From the NCBI GenBank assembly GCA_013697005.1, contig JACCXM010000129.1:1-32438 (forward strand): DNA of 32,438 bases. Reading direction: 5' to 3'. Made by a program: the position numbers and the translations under genes. Of the stretch, positions 103-27,907 are shown in pieces (the stretch's first letter is position 1; each line of letters begins with the position of its first letter). The DNA comes from Chloroflexia bacterium. Lineage in GTDB: Bacteria; Chloroflexota; Chloroflexia; Thermomicrobiales; UBA6265. Below the pieces are notes generated by a model. It worked only from the letters and a program-made list of their open reading frames with translations, did no database searches and had not been told where the DNA came from.

Positions 103-3100
103 ATGCGCGCGCCGTTCAGTCGCTCTCCACATCGTGGCTCCCGAGCGGCGCGGCGGAGCGCACTATCGCTCCGTAGTGTGCCCACGCAGTGGCTGCTGAT
201 CCTCTCCCTGCTGGTCAGTCTGCTGACGCCGCTGGCGCCGCTAACCCAGCCGGTGGCGGCCGCTCAAGGAAATGGGCAGTTTCCCCCACCGCTGCCGACT
301 CCCGGACGCGTCGCCCTGGCCGGGTCTTTCCAGACCGCGCTCGGGTGTCCAGCCGACTTCGATCCCACCTGCCCGCAGACGCAGCTTGGCGACGACGGGG
401 ACGGCTCGTGGACAGCGGTGCTGCCAGTCCCTCCCGGCGACTACGTCTTTCGCGTCGTCGCCTCCAGCGATGCGGAGCGTTCACTCGGCGACGGCGGCGA
501 TCCGAACGGGGCCGATCTCACGCTGAGCGTGCCGGGCAATGCCGCGGGAGCTTACTTCCGCTACGACAGTCTCACCGGCGATATCGTCGGTGTCCCGGTC
601 ACCAATGCCGCCACGCTCGTGACCGATCTGGGCGAGGAGTACCCCCTCGCTCCCGGAGTGGGTGGCGGCTATGAGATAGCCTGGGACGCCCAACCCGGCA
701 ACTACGGTTTCGAAATCCTCTTCAATGGGCAACCCGTGGCGCAGGACAGCATCGCTCTCGACGGACCGCGGCGGGTCGTCGTCGCGGTCGATGACGCCGG
801 CGCCGTGACCCTGAAGGACACCCTGCGCGATACCACGCTCGATGTCGCGGCGGTTGATGCCGCCGCTGCTCCGCGCCCAGGCGCCTGTTTCGCCATCGTC
901 GACGCCAATGACCGGCTGCGGACGCAGGCGTGCGACGGCGACGACGGGCAGGTCGATGGCTTCGTCGCACTACGCGTGCCCAACGGTCTCGAGGACGCCG
1001 ACTACTTCCTCCGCGAAACGTTCACTCCGGACGGCGGCGAAGCGACGGACGAGCAGCGGATCCCCCTCGGCGCCGGGCGCTTCGAGACAACCGTGGCTTC
1101 TGCCGGCGGCGAACTCAGCGTGCCAGCAACCGGGGAGCCTTCCGCTGAGCCGGCAACCGAAGTACCTGGAATCGTGCCGGCGACCGAAGAACCGGTTGAC
1201 GAGCCACCCGCGGGAACCGGACCGGCAGACGACCCGATCGCCGAGCCGGGTGAGCAGCCAGGGCGTCTTACCATTGTGGCCGTCGACGACGCCGGTCAGC
1301 CGCTGCCGGGCGCGTGCTTTGCGGTGGTGGAGTTCGGATTCGAGCTTTGTGATGACGACGGCGACGGCACGATTGATTTCGACGGTGTGCCCTCCGCACC
1401 GCTGACCCTGCGTGAAACCGTGCCCCCGGTTGGTTTCGAACCCGTCGGCGATCTTCCCATCAACATCGAACCGACCGGCGCGCGCCTCCTCGTGCCGCAT
1501 CGATCTAGCAGCGCCGAGACGCCGGCTGAGCCCGCGGAAATACCAACCGAAACGCCAACCGAGCCCGCGGAAGCACCAACCGAAACGGCGACGGCCGAGC
1601 CTGTCGAGACCCCGCAGACCGCCGCAACCGATGACGAACCGGGGCGGCTCGTCATTCTCGTCGCCGATGAAGACGGCAATCCGATGGCAGAAACCTGTTT
1701 CGATCTGCGCGGACCGGTCGAGTTGCTCGACGTCTGCGACCGCCAGAACGACGGCCAGCTCAACCTTCCCGATACCCCGCCCGGTGAGTACACCGTTACC
1801 CAGACCCAAACGGAAGCTGGCTTCACACCCGCGGATGAGACGACCGTGGAGGTGCCGCCGGGCGACACGATCGAGCTTCCCATCGTCAATGTCCCCGTGG
1901 GCAGCGATGCCGAGCAAGACGTGACCCCGGTCCCGACCATTCAGGACCAGGACCAGGACCCTGGTCAAGTCCTCCTCACGTTCCAGGGCGAAGACGGCGC
2001 GTCGCTGCCCGGCGCGTGCGTCGAGCTCACGGGCGAGGGACCGGACTCGTACATCGTCTGCGATGACAGTCAGGGAGACGAGAACCTTGCGCCCGGTCAG
2101 ATCGCGATCGCCGCGGTGACTCCGGGGAGTTACTCACTCGATCTCACACCGCCCGACGGTTTCGATGCACCGGAGCCTTCAACGATCGACGTCACTTCCG
2201 GCGCGGACGTGCCGGTCGAGATCGTCCTGTTCCAATCGCCGCCAGATACCGGCAGCATCGTCATTCTCGCCGAAGACGAGACGGGAAATCCTCTGCCGGA
2301 TGCCTGTTACACCGTGGCACTCGGCGAGCAGGCATTTGGACCGTTCTGCGATGACGATGGCGATGGCACCGTGACTATCGAAGGCGTCACCCCTGGCCCG
2401 CTTGCTGTCAGCGAGGAGACGCCTCCAACCGATTCGACGGCGGCCGACCCCGCCGTGCAGAATGCCGAGATCGCCGCCGGGGAAGAAACCGAGGTGATCT
2501 TCGCCCACGCCGCCGCGCAGGAGCAGGAAGCGGCTGGCAGCGTCGAGGTCGGTATCGTCGATCCCTCCGGCGCACCGTTCGCCGCCTGCGTTGAACTCGC
2601 TGGCGAAACGGACACGCTGACCGCCTGCGATGACGGCGACGATGACAGCGACGACCGGCCCGGTCAGGTGCGGTTCGACGCCGTTCCCGCCGGCCCCTAC
2701 ACCGTCGCCCTGACCGATCTCCCCGATGGCATCACCGCGCCAGACGACGAGACGATTGAGGTCCAGTCCGGCGAAACGACAGCGGTCACATTCGCGATCG
2801 TCTCCGGTCTGGGGACGCTGGTCATCCTCGTCGAGGACGAAGCGGGCACACCCCTCGGCGGCTCCTGCTTTACCATCGAGAGCCAGGGCCAAACCCAGAC
2901 CCTGACCGATGTCTGCGATCAGGGGGACGACGGCCGTCTCAATTTCCCCGATTTGGCATCGGGCGAATACACGGTCATCCAGACCCGTGCCGCCGCGGAC
3001 CGGCAGCTCGCGCGCGAGCAGGCCGTCACGGTTGAACCAGGGCAAACCGTCGAGATCACGCTGCTCAACCCAGGCGAACCAGAAACGCCAACCCCGACGC

Positions 3101-6100
3101 CGGAACCGACGACGACTCCAACAACGACGCCGGAACCCACCGCAACGCCGTCCCCGGAACCCGTGGTCACTCCCGTGCCCGAGGCCACCGTCGAGCGGCC
3201 GGCGGAATCCGGGGCAATCTCGATTGTCAGTCTTGCCCCGGACGGCAGCCCGTTGGGTGAAGGGTGTTTCAGCGTCACCGACACGGCAGGGACCGTGGTC
3301 GCCGAGCGCTGCGACAACGACAGCGCCGATTTCGATGGCGCCCAGGGCGTCGTCCAGCTAGGTGGACTCCCGTTCGGTGTGTACACCGTGACGCAGACCC
3401 AATCCGCGCCGGGCTTCACCCCGGCCGCGCCGGTCCAGATCGATCTCGGCGCAGAAGGCGCCTCCGTTGAGTTGGTCAGTGAAGCAGCCGCACCAGAAGT
3501 GGGCGCCGTCGAGTTCGCCACCTTCGACGACGCCGGCAACCCGGTCGCCGGTCAGTGCTACACCCTCGCCGGTGACGCCGGGACGTTTGGTCCCTTCTGC
3601 GACAACGGCGAAGGCGATGCCTCCGGCGATCCCGCGTTGCTTATCATCGAGGATCTCCCCACCGGAACCTACGAGGCGATGCTGGAGACCACGGCGGACG
3701 CGCCAGACGTCGAGCTGGGACAAGAGGCCCGGCAGCGCCGGTCCGTGTCGGTGCGGCGCGGCGATCGCCCCACGCGGGCCGAGTTCAGACTCCGCGCCCG
3801 GCAAAACCTGCGCGGCGATCTCCTCATCCGGGTGCGCGACCAGGACGGCGATTACCTCGCCGGCGCCTGTTTCGGACTGATCGAAACTGGCGCAACTGAA
3901 CCGAACGAAGAGGTCTGCGACAACGAAAACGGCGACGAAAACACCTCCGCCGGCCGCATCCTCATCACCGAGATCAGGGCCGGACGCTACACCCTGACCG
4001 AAACCACGCCTCCCGATGGCTATCTCCCCGCCCCGGATCAATCCGTTCGCGTGGCGGCGGGTGATGTACGCGAAGTCGCCGTCATCAACCAATCCGTACC
4101 GGAGCTGACCGCCACGCTCGACGTCGAAACGGTCGACGCCGCGGGCAATCTGCTCCCAGGGGCTTGCTACGCACTCCTGCTCGGCACGACAACGGTCGAG
4201 GCCTGCGACGACGACGGGGCTCTGGAAGGTATTACCGAGTTCGCCGATCTCGCTGCCGGTAGCTACCTCGTCCGTCAAATCCAGCCACCCACGGGCGGCT
4301 ATACGACCGCGGGCGACACGGCCACCCGGCTCGAACCGGGCGAGGCGGCGGTCGTCACCGTGGTCAACCAGGCGCGGCCCGGGAGTCTCGCCATCCGCAA
4401 GACCGACGACGCCGGGCAGCTTCTGGCGGACGCCTGTTTCGCCCTACGAAGTGGCGACCGCGCCATCTATACCGTCTGCGACAACGATGTCCGCGATGCT
4501 AATCGCGGCGTGGGGACCATCGTCTTCGGCACCGTCGCGCCGGGAACCTATCTCTTGCGCGAGACCCAACCACCGGCGGGGTATCTCGCCGCCGCTGACC
4601 GGGAGGTTGTCATCTCCGCCAACCAGCGGCGACAGCTCACCGTCGTCGACGCCTTGGCCCCGCCGCCGGAGCGGACCGGCGATCTGCGGGTCTTCAAAGT
4701 CGATACCCGCGGCCGCACCCTGGCTGGCTCCTGCTTTGCCGTGGTCGACGGCAATGGCCAGGTACTCGTTCCCCGCTGCGATGCCAATGACGGCGCCGAC
4801 GATGGGGTGATCCTCCTCGCCGGTATCGCCCCCGGCAACTACACGCTGCGCGAAACGCGCCGCCCCTCCGCGGACTACGAACTCGCGGCCGACGTCGCCG
4901 TGACGATCGTCGAGAACCGGACGGTCGACGTCGAGGTCGAAAATCGACTCCGCAATGGCCGCATCCTCATCCGCAAGATCGACCCCAATGGAGCACCTCT
5001 GGCAGGCGCCTGTTTCGATATCGTCGAAGACGCGGCGGGTGAATCGTGTACCGATGCCAACGGGACGGTCACCTTTAGCGGTCTCGTGCCGGGCATCTAT
5101 CGGGTGGTCGAAACCGAAGCGCCGCCGGGCCACCTCGGTGGACCAGCGCTCGATCCGGTCACGGTGCGGCCGGGAAGCACGACGACGGTCGATGTGGTCA
5201 ACCAACCCGCGCCGCCGCCGCCGGACAGTGGCTCGATTCAGATCAGGAAGTTCGTCTGTCCGGTCGAGCCGGGTGGCGGCGGGATCGTCTTCGTCGACTC
5301 GTCCAATCCGGACGGCGGCGGTCTGGCCCGCACCGCGGGGTGCACCGTTGGCGACGCCGCCTTCGTGCTCGACGGTCCAGCGGGGCCGATCGAGTTCCGC
5401 ACCGGCGCCGGCGGGCGCTTCCAGACCACCCTCGAGACCGGGGAGTACGTGCTCACCGAGCTGGCCACCGGCGCGGCGGAAGCGCTGACCGTGTCGGTCA
5501 ACGTCTTGACCACGGTTGTGGTCGTCAACTACGTCGAACCGGAAGGGGAACAGCCGGCGACGATCGACGTCATCAAGTACACCTGCGGGCCAGGTTTCCA
5601 GGGCCGCGTCTGGCTCGATTTCGCCGAGTCCTGCCGCGGCGATGAAAACCTCACCAACAACGTCGGGTTCCGGATTTCCGGGGCGGTCTCGGCGCGGCGG
5701 GTGACTGGCGATGCAGGAGTCGGCGGCGTGACCCAATTCACTGCGCTGCCCGCTGGCGATTACCGCCTGCGCGAAGAAACGCCCCTCGGCACGGTGGCGG
5801 TCTACGCCTTCTGCGGAATCGATCCGGCCTCGCCGAATGGGCGCGGGGTGGGCAACGCGGTGAATCTGCGGCTCGCCGCGGGGCAGATCGTGACCTGCCA
5901 CTGGTTCAACGTACCGGAGGATCTGGCCGGGGACACCGGGGCGGTGACGGTTTACAAATACGCCTGCCCGATCACCGTGCCGCCTACCACCTTCGACTGG
6001 TATGGCCGCTGCGATCCCCAGGGTCAGGGCGTCCGCTTCACGCTTTCCGTGCCCGATGGCGACCAGTTCCTGCCAGTCGTCACCGGCGCCACCGACGGCG

Positions 6101-6375
6101 ACGGCATCCTGCGTTTCACGCGGTTGCAACCCGGGACCTATCAACTGACGGAAGTCGACGCCACCTGGTGCCACGCCGAATCGGACAACGTCAACCGGGA
6201 CGGCAATGTCATTGTCGAGGCCGGCGAGCGCGCCAGTGTCTGGATTTTCAACTGCGTCGGGGCGAAGAATCCGCCCAACACCGGCGCCGGGCCGATGTGG
6301 ACCGCCGAGAGTCAGAAGTCGGACTCCCGACTTCCGGCTTCCGGCTTCCGGCTCAGATGGCGCAGCGCGTCATAA
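103..6375 (+). CDS. Giant secreted surface protein: X25-like N-terminal domain(s) followed by about 17 SpaA/Cna-B-like (prealbumin-fold) repeats
   Basis: ORF 88..6375; ATG at 103 is preceded by GGAGG. Signal-peptide-like WLLILSLLVSLLTPLAPL. VALAGSFQTALGCPADFDPTCPQTQL resembles pullulanase X25 domains. Repeats follow the pattern G-x-L-x-I-x-x-x-D-x-x-G-x-P-L-x-G-A-C-F ... C-D ... PGxYTLxETxPPxGY ... VVNQ. Confidence 0.85.
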   Translation: MRAPFSRSPHRGSRAARRSALSLRSVPTQWLLILSLLVSLLTPLAPLTQPVAAAQGNGQFPPPLPTPGRVALAGSFQTALGCPADFDPTCPQTQLGDDGDGSWTAVLPVPPGDYVFRVVASSDAERSLGDGGDPNGADLTLSVPGNAAGAYFRYDSLTGDIVGVPVTNAATLVTDLGEEYPLAPGVGGGYEIAWDAQPGNYGFEILFNGQPVAQDSIALDGPRRVVVAVDDAGAVTLKDTLRDTTLDVAAVDAAAAPRPGACFAIVDANDRLRTQACDGDDGQVDGFVALRVPNGLEDADYFLRETFTPDGGEATDEQRIPLGAGRFETTVASAGGELSVPATGEPSAEPATEVPGIVPATEEPVDEPPAGTGPADDPIAEPGEQPGRLTIVAVDDAGQPLPGACFAVVEFGFELCDDDGDGTIDFDGVPSAPLTLRETVPPVGFEPVGDLPINIEPTGARLLVPHRSSSAETPAEPAEIPTETPTEPAEAPTETATAEPVETPQTAATDDEPGRLVILVADEDGNPMAETCFDLRGPVELLDVCDRQNDGQLNLPDTPPGEYTVTQTQTEAGFTPADETTVEVPPGDTIELPIVNVPVGSDAEQDVTPVPTIQDQDQDPGQVLLTFQGEDGASLPGACVELTGEGPDSYIVCDDSQGDENLAPGQIAIAAVTPGSYSLDLTPPDGFDAPEPSTIDVTSGADVPVEIVLFQSPPDTGSIVILAEDETGNPLPDACYTVALGEQAFGPFCDDDGDGTVTIEGVTPGPLAVSEETPPTDSTAADPAVQNAEIAAGEETEVIFAHAAAQEQEAAGSVEVGIVDPSGAPFAACVELAGETDTLTACDDGDDDSDDRPGQVRFDAVPAGPYTVALTDLPDGITAPDDETIEVQSGETTAVTFAIVSGLGTLVILVEDEAGTPLGGSCFTIESQGQTQTLTDVCDQGDDGRLNFPDLASGEYTVIQTRAAADRQLAREQAVTVEPGQTVEITLLNPGEPETPTPTPEPTTTPTTTPEPTATPSPEPVVTPVPEATVERPAESGAISIVSLAPDGSPLGEGCFSVTDTAGTVVAERCDNDSADFDGAQGVVQLGGLPFGVYTVTQTQSAPGFTPAAPVQIDLGAEGASVELVSEAAAPEVGAVEFATFDDAGNPVAGQCYTLAGDAGTFGPFCDNGEGDASGDPALLIIEDLPTGTYEAMLETTADAPDVELGQEARQRRSVSVRRGDRPTRAEFRLRARQNLRGDLLIRVRDQDGDYLAGACFGLIETGATEPNEEVCDNENGDENTSAGRILITEIRAGRYTLTETTPPDGYLPAPDQSVRVAAGDVREVAVINQSVPELTATLDVETVDAAGNLLPGACYALLLGTTTVEACDDDGALEGITEFADLAAGSYLVRQIQPPTGGYTTAGDTATRLEPGEAAVVTVVNQARPGSLAIRKTDDAGQLLADACFALRSGDRAIYTVCDNDVRDANRGVGTIVFGTVAPGTYLLRETQPPAGYLAAADREVVISANQRRQLTVVDALAPPPERTGDLRVFKVDTRGRTLAGSCFAVVDGNGQVLVPRCDANDGADDGVILLAGIAPGNYTLRETRRPSADYELAADVAVTIVENRTVDVEVENRLRNGRILIRKIDPNGAPLAGACFDIVEDAAGESCTDANGTVTFSGLVPGIYRVVETEAPPGHLGGPALDPVTVRPGSTTTVDVVNQPAPPPPDSGSIQIRKFVCPVEPGGGGIVFVDSSNPDGGGLARTAGCTVGDAAFVLDGPAGPIEFRTGAGGRFQTTLETGEYVLTELATGAAEALTVSVNVLTTVVVVNYVEPEGEQPATIDVIKYTCGPGFQGRVWLDFAESCRGDENLTNNVGFRISGAVSARRVTGDAGVGGVTQFTALPAGDYRLREETPLGTVAVYAFCGIDPASPNGRGVGNAVNLRLAAGQIVTCHWFNVPEDLAGDTGAVTVYKYACPITVPPTTFDWYGRCDPQGQGVRFTLSVPDGDQFLPVVTGATDGDGILRFTRLQPGTYQLTEVDATWCHAESDNVNRDGNVIVEAGERASVWIFNCVGAKNPPNTGAGPMWTAESQKSDSRLPASGFRLRWRSAS
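1528..1593 (+). repeat. 33-bp tandem duplication (2 copies) encoding a P/T/E-rich inter-domain linker
   Basis: GAGCCCGCGGAAATACCAACCGAAACGCCAACC / GAGCCCGCGGAAGCACCAACCGAAACGGCGACG. Confidence 0.8.
6315..6351 (+). repeat. Hairpin GAAGTCGG-ACTC-CCGACTTC running into 3x CTTCCGG heptamers, inside the 3' end of the giant ORF
   Basis: Read directly: 8-bp perfect stem 6315-6322/6327-6334; heptamers at 6331-6337, 6338-6344 and 6345-6351. Confidence 0.85.
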
Positions 6376-6450
6376 CACGCTACTATTCGCCGTTGGAGTA
6401 GGGTGCCGGCACTGCCGGCTGCACCTCGAGCGCAGCGGAGCGTAGACACA

Positions 6451-8478
6451 ATGCAGTTCCGGCATCTCCGTGGGGCGGCGCGCCTCTTCCTCGTCATGGT
6501 TCTCATTGCGGGAACCGTGATCTCTGGGTATCTCCCTGTCTCCGATCCATCCAGGTCGCCATCTGAGGCCGCCGCCCTCGTGGCGAAGAACAAACACGCC
6601 AGGAACCAGGGAACGCAGTCCACCACCCAGCGCCAGCAATCGAACGCCAAGAAGAACGGCCAGAACACAAAAGAGCCGGGCAAATCCAACAATCCCAACA
6701 AAGGCAAAAACAAAAACGCGGGCAAGAACAACGGCAAGTCGAAGCAGCGCCGCGGCAAGGCGTCCGGCTCGCTCGATGCCGGCCAGATCGCCGCGGCGAA
6801 TGCGGAGACCGTCGCGGCGTTGCAATGCGACGGCGACCTGACCGCGATCCGGGTGGACGGCCGCGTCTATTGCACGCACGGTGAGGATCCCGAGCGTTAT
6901 CGCGCTAGGACCGGGACCGGTGGAGAGGTTCGCGGGGCCGGCGCCGGCGAGACGGGGTCGCGGGCGCTCTGCATCGATGACGGCGCCTCGGGTGCGCGCG
7001 TACAGCTCGTCTACGTCTATCGTAGTGACCAACCCAACCGTCTGGCGGAGCTGCAATCCACATTTCGCCGGCTTGCCACCGAGATGGATGCCATTTTCGA
7101 CCAAAGTGCCCGCAAGACCGGGGGCTCCCTCCGTGTTCGCTTTGTGACCAGCGCCGGCTCCGGTTGCCAGGTCGACATTCAGCAATTGCAAGCGACCTCT
7201 GCTGAGGTGAGCGGATTCGACTCCCTGGTCGGCAAAATGCAGTCTGCCGGCTTTAATCGGATCGACCGCAAATATTTGATGATGGTCGATGACAGCGTGT
7301 TCTGTGGGGTCGGCACGTTTTCCGGCGGGACGGGCGCCGATAGCCCGACCACCCAGGCCCACAATTTCACCGGTTACGCCCGGGTCGATCTCCCCTGCTG
7401 GGACGCCGGGACCATGGCCCACGAGCTCTCGCACAACCTGGGCGCGGTGCAGTATTCCGCGCCCAACACCAGCGGCGGCGCGCACTGCATCGATGAGTGG
7501 GACGTCATGTGCTACTCCGACACACCGTACCGACCGGCCATGCGGATCGATTGCGATCCTGGTCTGCAAGACTTTCGCCTCGAGTGCGGGAGCGACGACT
7601 ACTTTGCCATGCAGCCCAAGAGTTCATATCTCGCAAGTCATTGGAACATGGCCCGGAGCATCTATCTGACCCCCGGTAATGGCCCGGCATGCGCTGATGC
7701 GAGGTTCGAACCAGACGATGCCTATTGGTACGACTACTGGGAGGTTCCGTTGCGCGCGTTTCCGATCGGTCTGACCGAGAAACACGCGTTCTGCGCGGAG
7801 TCAGGTGACACCGACTGGGTGCTTATCCACGCCACAGGCGGCACGGCTTACACGATCGAAACAAAGAATCTCGCCCCGGAAGTCGATACAAATCTGGTGC
7901 TCTACCGCGGGTTCGAGGAGATGGGCTGGGACGGTATGGAGGAATTCGGAGCCAACAACAACCGATCAGGTACCGATCTCTCATCGGTGATCACCTTCAC
8001 CGCGCCCAGCAACGGTTCGTTCCTGGTCGGCATCGCCAACGTCGGCCCTGGCGCCGGATTCGACAAGAGCTATTCCCTCTCCATCACCGAAGCTGGCGGG
8101 TCCGCATTTGGCGACATGTCCCTCACACCGGCCGAGGCGCAGCGGAGGGAGGCGTTCACCGCGACCGTTGTCGGTCGTACCTCTGGCGAAATGGTCGATT
8201 TCCGGTGGGAGCGGGGCGGAAAATCCGACCCGCTGGGCGCCGCCGTTGCCGGGGCGGATGGGATCGCTCTCGGATCTTTGGCTGTGCCGGGAGATGCTAT
8301 CGCGGGCGAAAATCAGATCGACGCATTCGCCGGCAATAGACTCGTTGGTACCGCGACGATGACCGTGGACGTGCCCACCGTGACAACGCCGCCAGCGCCG
8401 GCAGCGCCGCCAAAGAGCAAGAAGGGCAAGAAGGGCAAAGGCGGGAAGAAGAAAGGCGGTGGCAAGGGCAAACCCTGA
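6451..8478 (+). CDS. Secreted metzincin-like zinc metalloprotease with PPC-like C-terminal domain and Lys/Gly/Asn-rich low-complexity ends
   Basis: ORF 6403..8478; start at the MQFRHLRG Met preferred because the hydrophobic signal follows. AHELSHNLGAVQYSAPNTSGGAHCIDEWDVMCYSD contains HExxHxxG and a Met-turn. GDTDWVLIHATGGTAYTIETKNL...DTNLVLYRG is PPC-like. Confidence 0.75.
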   Translation: MQFRHLRGAARLFLVMVLIAGTVISGYLPVSDPSRSPSEAAALVAKNKHARNQGTQSTTQRQQSNAKKNGQNTKEPGKSNNPNKGKNKNAGKNNGKSKQRRGKASGSLDAGQIAAANAETVAALQCDGDLTAIRVDGRVYCTHGEDPERYRARTGTGGEVRGAGAGETGSRALCIDDGASGARVQLVYVYRSDQPNRLAELQSTFRRLATEMDAIFDQSARKTGGSLRVRFVTSAGSGCQVDIQQLQATSAEVSGFDSLVGKMQSAGFNRIDRKYLMMVDDSVFCGVGTFSGGTGADSPTTQAHNFTGYARVDLPCWDAGTMAHELSHNLGAVQYSAPNTSGGAHCIDEWDVMCYSDTPYRPAMRIDCDPGLQDFRLECGSDDYFAMQPKSSYLASHWNMARSIYLTPGNGPACADARFEPDDAYWYDYWEVPLRAFPIGLTEKHAFCAESGDTDWVLIHATGGTAYTIETKNLAPEVDTNLVLYRGFEEMGWDGMEEFGANNNRSGTDLSSVITFTAPSNGSFLVGIANVGPGAGFDKSYSLSITEAGGSAFGDMSLTPAEAQRREAFTATVVGRTSGEMVDFRWERGGKSDPLGAAVAGADGIALGSLAVPGDAIAGENQIDAFAGNRLVGTATMTVDVPTVTTPPAPAAPPKSKKGKKGKGGKKKGGGKGKP

Positions 8479-25756: not shown

Positions 25757-26017
25757 GACGCAGTACGGCGTCGATCGGGACGAGTACCCGCGGGACCACC
25801 GCCAGAAAGACCGGCTGCAGCTGTGAGTCCGGTTCGGCAAGGCCTCGGCGAAAACCACCCGGGAGCTGACCACCGATCCCCTGATGGGGTGTAGGCTGGT
25901 CCGGATGGCCCCGTTAGCGGCTACGACGAGCGGGCAGGTGCATGCGGCGACCTGACCCGGAACGAGGGTGGAACCACGCCGGTCCGGCGTCCCTATGTGG
26001 GGACACGGGCCGTTTTT
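25757..26017 (+). promoter_or_regulatory. T-box leader (transcription-attenuation type) upstream of thrS
   Basis: T-box motif GAGGGTGGAACCACG (25964-25978). Stem I base GATCGG (25773-25778)/CCGATC (25873-25878). Candidate Thr specifier ACC at 25869-25871. Confidence 0.9.
25980..26017 (+). terminator. T-box intrinsic terminator
   Basis: CGGTCCG (25980-25986)/CGGGCCG (26006-26012), inner GTCCC/GGGAC, followed by TTTTT. Confidence 0.85.
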
Positions 26018-26071
26018 CATGCCCGCCGCGGCAACCCACCCGCGGCGACGTGCGACAACAAGGACACCAGC

Positions 26072-27907
26072 ATGGACGAAACACCCGACGACGTCGCGCA
26101 CATGGACATCGCCGTCGATCTGGAGGACGCTCCCGCCTACGAGCTGGCACGGATGCGCCATTCCGCCGCCCATCTCATGGCGGAGGCGGTGCTGGAGATG
26201 TTTCCGGACGCCAAATTCGGTATCGGGCCCGCCATCGAGCACGGGTTCTATTACGATTTCGAGCTTCCCCGCCAACTTGCACCGGAAGATCTGGAAGAGA
26301 TCGATCGTCGCATGGCGGCCAACCACCAGAAGCGGGAGCCGTTCGTGCGCGAGGTCGTCTCCCGCGACGAGGCGCTGCGCATCTTCGGCGACAGCCCCTA
26401 CAAGGTCGAGCTGATTGAAGGTCTGCCCCCGGACGAGATCATCACGACCTATCAGCAAGGAGCGTTTCTCGATCTCTGCCGCGGTCCCCATGTTGCCAGC
26501 ACGGGTGAGATCGGTCCGTGGAAATTGACGTCCATCGCCGGCGCCTACTGGCGCGGCGACGAGAAGCGGCCGATGTTGCAACGCATCTACGGCACGGCCT
26601 GGCCGACCCAAGAAGAGCTCGACGCGCATGTGCAGCGGCTCGCGGAGGCGCAGCGCCGCGATCACCGCAGGCTTGGGCGCGAGCTCGATCTCTTCTCGGT
26701 GAACGAGGAGATCGGTCCTGGGCTCATTCTCTGGCACCCCAATGGCGCCATGATCCGCTATCTGGTCGAGCAATTCGAGCAAAAGGAACAGCTCGCGCGC
26801 GGCTATGATCTGGTCAACACGCCGCACATTGCTTCGGAAAAGATCTACCGCACATCCGGTCACCTCGAAACGTACCGCGAGAACATGTACTCGCCGATGA
26901 GCATCGAGGAGGTCGATTACTACCTCAAACCGATGAACTGACCCGCTCACATCATGATCTACAAGAACCAGATCCACTCCTACCGCGATTTGCCGATCCG
27001 GTTCGCCGAGCTGGGCACGGTCTATCGCTACGAGCGCTCCGGGACCCTCCACGGCATGTTGCGGGTCCGCGGGTTCACCCAGGACGACGCGCACATCTTC
27101 TGCACGTTGGAGCAGGTCGTCGCCGAGGTGCGCGGCGTGATCGACCTCGCCATTCACATGGCGGGGGTCTTCGGCTATGAGTTCCAGACGTATCTTTCGA
27201 CCCGCCCGGAAAAAACGATCGGCAGCGACGAGGTGTGGGACCGTGCCACCGGCGACCTCCGCCGGGCCATGGAGGAACGCGGGCTTTCGTACAAGATCGA
27301 TGAGGGCGCGGGAACCTTCTATGGTCCCAAGATCGACATCAAGTGGGTCGATGCCCTCGGCCGGGAGTGGACCGGCCCCACGATCCAGGTCGATTTCAAT
27401 CTGCCAGAGCGATTCGACGTCAACTACATCGCCGAGGATGGCGAGCGCCATCGCGTCGCCATGATCCACCGCACGCTGCTGGGTTCGATGGAGCGCTTCG
27501 TCGGCGGCTTGGTCGAACACTACGCCGGAGCGTTTCCGCTCTGGTTGGCGCCAACGCAAGCCGCGCTGATTCCGATTACCGACGACCAGATCGATTACGC
27601 CCGCGACGTCGCGCGCCGGCTTCAGGACGCCGGCCTGCGCGTCGCGGTCAACGACCGGCGCGACCGCATGCAGGCCAAAATTCGGGAAGCGCAGATGCAG
27701 AAAATTCCCTACATGCTCGTCATCGGCAAGCGCGAGGCCGCCGAGGACGCGGTCGCAGTCCGTCTCCGCAACGGCCGCGACCTGGGCGCGATGCCGGTTG
27801 CCACCTTCCTCGATCTGGCGCTCCCCCGCATCGCATCCCGCTCACTCTATCTGGACGAGGTCGAGGAATCAGCCGCGAGGGAGGCTGAGTTCGCGGTATC
27901 CACTTGA
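26072..27907 (+). CDS. thrS: Threonyl-tRNA synthetase (TGS-less) interrupted by an in-frame TGA at 26939-26941 in place of the zinc-ligand Cys codon
   Basis: Part 1: RHSAAHLMAEAV editing motif ... YYLKPMN-TGA. Part 2, same frame: PAHIMIYKNQIHSYRDLPIRFAELGTVYRYERSGTLHGMLRVRGFTQDDAHIFC...HRTLLGSMERFVGGLVEHYAGAFPLWLAP. ORFs 25997..26941 and 26954..27907 are in the same frame. Confidence 0.88.

Follow-up and report, generated by a model that had tools for sequence, protein, structure and literature searches.

The window analysed here, a stretch of 32,438 nucleotides from a Chloroflexia genome, opens with the gene of a giant adhesin whose stalk is built of repeated SpaA/CnaB-type domains. The locus raises the question of which covalent cross-links lock such a stalk, and in which of its units. 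A sequence-only reading had proposed that two cross-link chemistries occur in one fibre and that the stalk switches from disulfides to Lys-Asn isopeptide bonds, with units 12-14 alone having both. We assessed the residues of every unit in the window protein, their covariation in relatives, the predicted structures and the order of the units along the stalk.

Layout of the adhesin

The open reading frame runs on the forward strand from the ATG at 103 to the stop codon at 6375 and encodes a protein of 2,090 aa. The frame is open from 88, and a ggagg resembling a ribosome-binding site lies upstream of the ATG, which makes 103 the probable start; residue numbers such as K1438 are counted from the codon at nucleotide 88 and not from this ATG. 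The Pfam SpaA profile (PF17802) matched the protein encoded by 103..6375 in 12 stretches (E = 1.9e-101). A signal-peptide-like N-terminus is followed by an X25-like tip, 17 SpaA/CnaB-type units and a PPNTG motif (Table 1); Pro/Thr/Glu-rich linkers follow units 1, 2, 3 and 7. The unit limits read earlier fit well, unit 1 starting at nucleotide 835 and unit 17 ending near 6261. With the profile of sortase-polymerised pilins of the SpaH/EbpB type (NF033902), the protein scored 53.6 bits against a cut-off of 95 and is therefore not assigned to that family.

Table 1. Features of the adhesin gene, in nucleotide positions of the window
Feature	Position	Strand	Basis
Giant SpaA/CnaB-repeat adhesin, secreted	103..6375	+	ORF, RBS-like ggagg, Pfam SpaA
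Basic N-terminus with putative hydrophobic signal peptide (…WLLILSLLVSLLTPLAPLTQPVAAAQ)	103..267	+	Sequence; N-termini alike in relatives
Tip: X25 (pullulanase/starch-binding-like) module 310-576 and second beta-sandwich module 577-831	310..831	+	PF22058, AlphaFold, Foldseek
Units 1-11: Cys-pair SpaA-like, no Lys at isopeptide position	835..4380	+	
Unit 12: triad K1438-E1492-D1521 and C1450/C1464	4384..4665	+	Alignment, model strands
Unit 13: triad K1537-E1589-N1619 and C1549/C1564	4681..4953	+	Alignment, model strands
Unit 14: triad K1630-E1675-N1705 and C1642/C1654; nearest of the units to solved CnaB domains	4960..5214	+	
Unit 15: triad K1721-E1791-N1814 and relocated Cys pair C1724/C1752	5233..5541	+	Alignment
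Unit 16: triad K1830-E1896-N1941 and four Cys (C1833, C1849, C1909, C1937)	5560..5922	+	Alignment
Unit 17: triad K1957-E2022-N2055 and four Cys (C1960, C1975, C2028, C2056)	5941..6261	+	Alignment
PPNTG sortase-type sorting motif	6271..6285	+	xPNTG in all relatives having this end
Aberrant C-terminal tail	6286..6372	+	No hydrophobic segment; inverted-repeat-like stretch inside

Tip, anchor and cell machinery

The X25 profile (PF22058) matched the tip with 52.7 bits, above its cut-off of 27 (E = 4.5e-14). The AlphaFold model of the tip reached a pLDDT of 91.7 and a pTM of 0.85, and its Foldseek matches included the X25 pair of Sca5 (7rpy) and a pullulanase (2wan). The tip resembles the Sca5/Sas20 X25 pair of Ruminococcus bromii (PMC9112005, 7rpy) in that tandem X25 modules are carried on a surface protein with a sorting signal; however, the adhesin tip does not retain, as a set, the four ligand-binding Trp found there. 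Alignment A2, inspected by eye, showed no such Trp set to be conserved. Starch binding by the tip is therefore not supported, although its fold resembles an X25 pair.

At the other end of the protein, most relatives have a hydrophobic stretch and an Arg-rich end after xPNTG. The window copy has neither a hydrophobic nor a basic tail; i.e., the hydrophobic tail required for sortase anchoring is absent from it. A frameshift was rejected as the cause, as no other frame encodes a hydrophobic tail and a segment is missing in comparison with the relative L024. A repeat family was likewise rejected as the source of the inverted-repeat-like stretch, which has no second copy in the genome assembly.

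The same genome encodes three sortases, the best NCBIfam match being to class F but under its cut-off, and two VKOR genes, one of which adjoins a gene for a DsbA-like thioredoxin. Isopeptide formation in CnaB domains needs no enzyme. With sortases and VKOR/DsbA-like proteins in the genome, both chemistries are plausible outside the membrane. An Rfam match to tRNA-Sec above its cut-off was identified by ARAGORN as tRNA-Leu and was discarded.

Cys in every unit and isopeptide residues in units 12-17

At the Lys position of the first strand, units 1-17 carry A, A, V, F, A, I, V, S, T, V, T, K, K, K, K, K and K, and all letters quoted in the sequence-only reading proved correct. The terminal residue, Asp in unit 12 and Asn in units 13-17, and the Cys pair in each of units 1-14 were also found as read. 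Each of units 12-17 has the catalytic Glu; in units 3, 4, 6, 7, 8, 9 and 11 Gln or Leu takes its place. The residues of an isopeptide CnaB domain, namely Lys in the first strand, Asn or Asp in the last strand and Glu between them, were thus found together in units 12-17 only and in none of units 1-11. The terminal Asn also persists in many Lys-less units, among them units 3, 7, 10 and 11 of the window protein; Asn by itself does not discriminate, and we rejected it as a diagnostic residue.

The proposed switch did not hold. Units 15-17 carry ten Cys, overlooked earlier and invariant in 18/18 sequences, with the pairings C1724/C1752 in unit 15, C1833/C1849 and C1909/C1937 in unit 16, and C1960/C1975 and C2028/C2056 in unit 17. 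Disulfides are therefore possible in every unit, and the triad comes on top of them as a second lock rather than in their place.

Of only nine Lys among the 2,090 aa of the whole protein, six stand at the isopeptide position (K1438, K1537, K1630, K1721, K1830 and K1957). The probability that at least six of nine Lys would fall by chance on the 17 strand-A positions is 9e-12. Lys makes up 0.43% of the adhesin, compared with about 0.5 to 4.6% of the other likely genes of the window, and some of its rarity in the adhesin is compositional.

Covariation of the residues in relatives

Of 61 genomes searched at the protein level, 40 gave matches, and strong full-length relatives were confined to one family of Thermomicrobiales (Chloroflexota). 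A profile of units 1-14 (91 columns), run on 24 regions, yielded 366 assessable units in 23 sequences. Cys stood at column 18 in 361 of these and at column 32 in 360, and at no other match column. Both Cys were missing in five of the six exceptional units and one Cys in the remaining one. These five joint absences, and the positions at the ends of a hairpin in the model, are what would be expected of paired Cys that come and go as one and lie face to face in the domain.

Lys occupied column 6 in 112/366 units, and all 112 had Glu at column 59; only 58 of the 254 units without Lys had this Glu (Fisher P = 4e-51, which is a guide only because the sequences are related). Asn or Asp stood at the aligned column in 101 of the 112 Lys units. 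Inspected by eye, the rest comprised one misaligned unit with Asp nearby, two units that were cut off and eight that truly have no Asn or Asp, six of the eight being unit 1. Lys and Glu alone are therefore no proof of a bond. In 16 units Arg replaced Lys, with Glu in 16/16 and Asn or Asp in 0/16. Since the Arg units keep Glu, the Lys-Glu coupling alone could be electrostatic; however, Asn/Asp goes with Lys and not with Arg, which argues for an isopeptide and separates the salt bridge from isopeptide chemistry. Judged by their residues, the units may be sorted by core state into covalent, salt-bridged and uncharged.

Homologous positions were compared in alignment A1, which comprised units 10-17 from 18 sequences, i.e., 144 unit cells, and every Cys was retained in 144/144. 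Lys was present in 112 cells, each of which had the full triad with Glu and Asn/Asp (112/112), and Glu was missing in 28 of the 32 Lys-less cells. Unit 17 kept its triad in 18/18 sequences. Five sequences have a unit 16 with neither Lys, Glu nor Asn, for which the tree requires four or more changes. Across units, the tree of relatives implied a minimum of 17 changes for Lys and 16 for Glu. On well-supported branches Glu followed Lys in 9/11 contrasts and opposed it in none, these pooled contrasts being not fully independent as several units share one tree. The border of the triads varies: units 10 and 11 have triads in many relatives, and L041 and L043 have lost all triads of units 12-14. The covariation of Lys, Glu and Asn/Asp and the near-invariant Cys pairs support what the sequence-only reading had said of two chemistries in one fibre and of an isopeptide-competent part near the anchor.

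Predicted structures and fold matches

The AlphaFold model of units 10-17, which was fed with an 18-row alignment, had a pLDDT of 83.9 and a pTM of 0.35. Such a low pTM is expected of a flexible bead chain, and the geometry from unit to unit is therefore not interpretable. Within units 10-14, the first Cys opens one strand and the second closes the next, so that the pair sits where a hairpin opens, one Cys on either strand (model residues 18/34, 117/130, 207/221, 306/321 and 399/411, respectively). For the triads of units 12-17, the model puts Lys in the first strand, Glu on a core strand farther along, and Asn/Asp at the last strand or directly behind it.

The model has a CnaB-type beta-sandwich fold, in line with its Foldseek matches to pilins. 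These matches were the TIE protein, BcpA, RrgB, GBS52, SpaD and FimP, and HMMER led to the same group. For units 12-14, the best sequence and fold matches were BcpA (3kpt), GBS52 (3phs), the TIE protein (6fwv) and FbaB CnaB2 (2x5p). Unlike the adhesin, these four have no Cys at its two conserved columns in the alignments listed, and their architecture differs.

Order of the triads along the stalk

We counted triads back from unit 14 in the 18 sequences with a complete end. The first five positions had triads in 15, 16, 14, 8 and 10 of the 18 sequences, respectively, and positions farther out in 0 to 3. The mean distance was 2.8 units, against 7.6 in 5,000 within-sequence permutations, not one of which was as low, shared ancestry being uncorrected in this comparison. 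The graded order is not universal, as triads are scattered along the stalk in L042 and L045. L042, L041 and L043 are exceptions inside the 18-sequence set; L045, which has mostly triads and whose 3' end is off the contig, lies outside it.

Discussion

We conclude, with a probability of roughly 0.8, that the locus encodes a sortase-type fibrillar adhesin with a disulfide in all 17 units, to which a Lys-Asn/Asp isopeptide is added in the anchor-side units 12-17. The analysis establishes the residues, their order, their covariation in relatives and the fold predicted for them; that both kinds of bond form we infer with high confidence. The disulfide would close the B-C beta-hairpin of each of units 1-14, and the relocated Cys pairs of units 15-17 would do a similar job. 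In units 12-17, an autocatalytic, Glu-aided Lys-Asn isopeptide (Lys-Asp in unit 12) would tie the first strand to the last.

The opposing view of the Cys, namely that they bind metal or remain reduced, appears very improbable to us. The Asp-rich loop after the second Cys (C-D-[ND]-D-D-G…) could bind Ca2+; however, a Ca2+ site in that loop would not require Cys, the protein is secreted, VKOR and DsbA-like proteins are encoded in the genome, and the Cys are lost pairwise and lie at facing hairpin ends in the model. The possibility that Lys and Glu in units 12-17 form only a buried salt bridge, with no covalent isopeptide, deserves more weight, although we still consider it unlikely. Part of the Lys-Glu coupling is explained by a charge pair, as is evident from the 16/16 Arg units that keep Glu and from the eight Lys-Glu units without Asn or Asp. 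A salt bridge does not account for the tie of Asn/Asp to Lys (112/112 cells in alignment A1; 101/112 and one misaligned unit in the profile set) and never to Arg, or for a unit 16 without Lys, Glu and Asn at four separate places on the tree. In addition, the fold and the residue positions are those of families with proven bonds.

In Spy0128, an isopeptide bond renders the domain inextensible to about 800 pN, as cited in PMC8382745. Under pull, the anchor-proximal units of the adhesin would accordingly resemble inextensible beads. The B-C hairpin disulfide does not join the two ends of its domain; therefore, the distal units should still unfold, except for the small disulfide-closed loop of about a dozen residues between the Cys. 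The fibre would then stretch in its outer part and stay rigid at its base. We offer this mechanical role of the graded stalk as a hypothesis. In its fuller form, which we hold only tentatively and as rather doubtful, each bead has a constant disulfide and the three core states, i.e., covalent (K-E-N/D), salt-bridged (R-E without N) and uncharged (V/T/A with Q/L/M), evolve as units, with selection keeping the covalent state near the anchor and letting the outer beads unfold. A competing account, in which the absence of triads from units 1-11 is neutral decay of a repetitive protein and their anchor-side clustering has no mechanical meaning, is quite possible, if somewhat short of an even chance. 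The many losses and gains (at least 17 Lys changes on the tree) and the relatives whose triads are scattered or, over units 10-14, nearly absent (L042, L045, L041 and L043) are in keeping with it. However, neutral decay fits less well with the unit 17 triad in 18/18 sequences, with a clustering stronger than in all 5,000 permutations (shared ancestry uncorrected) and with the retention of Lys at the isopeptide sites of a protein in which it is otherwise very rare.

The combination of disulfide and isopeptide is not new. Both bonds occur within one CnaB protein in FimP and corynebacterial SpaA (PMC3485203), and the shaft pilins FimP and FimA of Actinomyces oris and SpaA of Corynebacterium diphtheriae share this combination with the adhesin. 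In the N-domain of FimP, a disulfide beginning beside the Lys closes off the loop that follows strand 1 (PMC3485203), a placement similar to the KxxC…C of units 15-17. However, FimP, FimA and SpaA are three-domain pilins polymerised by sortase, whereas the adhesin strings 17 units on one chain, each of them with a Cys pair, and has triads in the anchor-proximal units alone. The 2025 global survey (PMC12617251) is a further precedent: in the passages cited here, disulfides accompany 42.7% of the isopeptide domains predicted for Chloroflexota, some CLIPPER/DUF11 repeats are without an isopeptide bond, and fibrillar adhesins likewise have long stalks of tandem isopeptide domains. Those passages give frequencies, but neither an order along the stalk nor a joint loss of Lys, Glu and Asn on a constant disulfide scaffold. 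Our search of the open-access literature on Chloroflexota SpaA isopeptide proteins and Thermomicrobiales adhesins returned nothing relevant. In the open-access literature we found no description of a constant disulfide in every unit combined with triads that are present or absent as whole sets and biased to the anchor, and regard this as the new element.

The relatives supply hundreds of homologous domains in which the fold and the disulfide are constant and the triad is present or absent, a natural series for asking what an isopeptide contributes on top of a disulfide and what must be in place before a domain can lose its isopeptide. Units predicted to have both bonds are candidate scaffolds for tag/catcher protein chemistry. 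The adhesin also brings the little-studied Chloroflexota (Thermomicrobiales) into research on covalently locked adhesins.

Variation in the repeats and C-terminal tail of the adhesin

In the relatives' repeats, the isopeptide Lys was replaced by Arg in 16 units of the unit 3 and unit 1 types (e.g., in the adhesin loci L041, L043 and L044). All 16 of these units retained the Glu, and none carried the Asn/Asp; this combination possibly represents a salt-bridged core state. From the second Cys onward, columns 32–40 of each unit formed an Asp-rich loop, C-D-[ND]-D-D-G-D, sometimes in the variant DxDGDGxI. This loop resembles a Ca2+-binding loop; its EF-hand matches were only weak.

The hydrophobic sorting tail that follows xPNTG in most relatives was lost from the window's adhesin, and the adhesins of L029, L033 and L042 likewise had weak tails. 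Within the tail of the window's adhesin lay an inverted-repeat-like stretch, AGTCAGAAGTCGGACTCCCGACTTCC, of which no second copy was found elsewhere in the assembly. Either wall anchoring is gone from this copy, or the assembly is wrong at window 6286–6372. The secreted protein encoded downstream of the adhesin had Lys-rich tails; among the fetched loci, its counterpart was a neighbour of the adhesin in L024 only (55% identity).

Genes discussed in this section
Gene	Location	Strand	Feature
Secreted protein gene, downstream of adhesin	window 6403-8478	+	HELSHNLG zinc-protease motif
thrS	window 25997-27907	+	in-frame TGA at 26939-26941
DsbA-like lipoprotein gene	L051:1903-2727 (own genome, contig C9)	-	adjoins VKOR

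In-frame TGA codons and disulfide formation

The TGA in thrS occupied the exact position of the zinc-ligand Cys in the motif MN[C]PxH, where all eight relatives with the motif read had TGC or TGT. The hairpin 3' of this TGA was unremarkable (z -1.3). Probably, either an error of sequencing or assembly introduced this codon, or the gene is broken.

The DsbA-like lipoprotein read WGDYT[TGA]PGC. This protein matched the NCBIfam family NF041057 of thioredoxin-like (seleno)lipoproteins, and its homologues in two further genomes (G001 and G002) had a single TGA each. selB was found with a score above the cut-off; a search for tRNA-Sec confirmed none. Disulfide formation in the window's organism may depend on selenocysteine.
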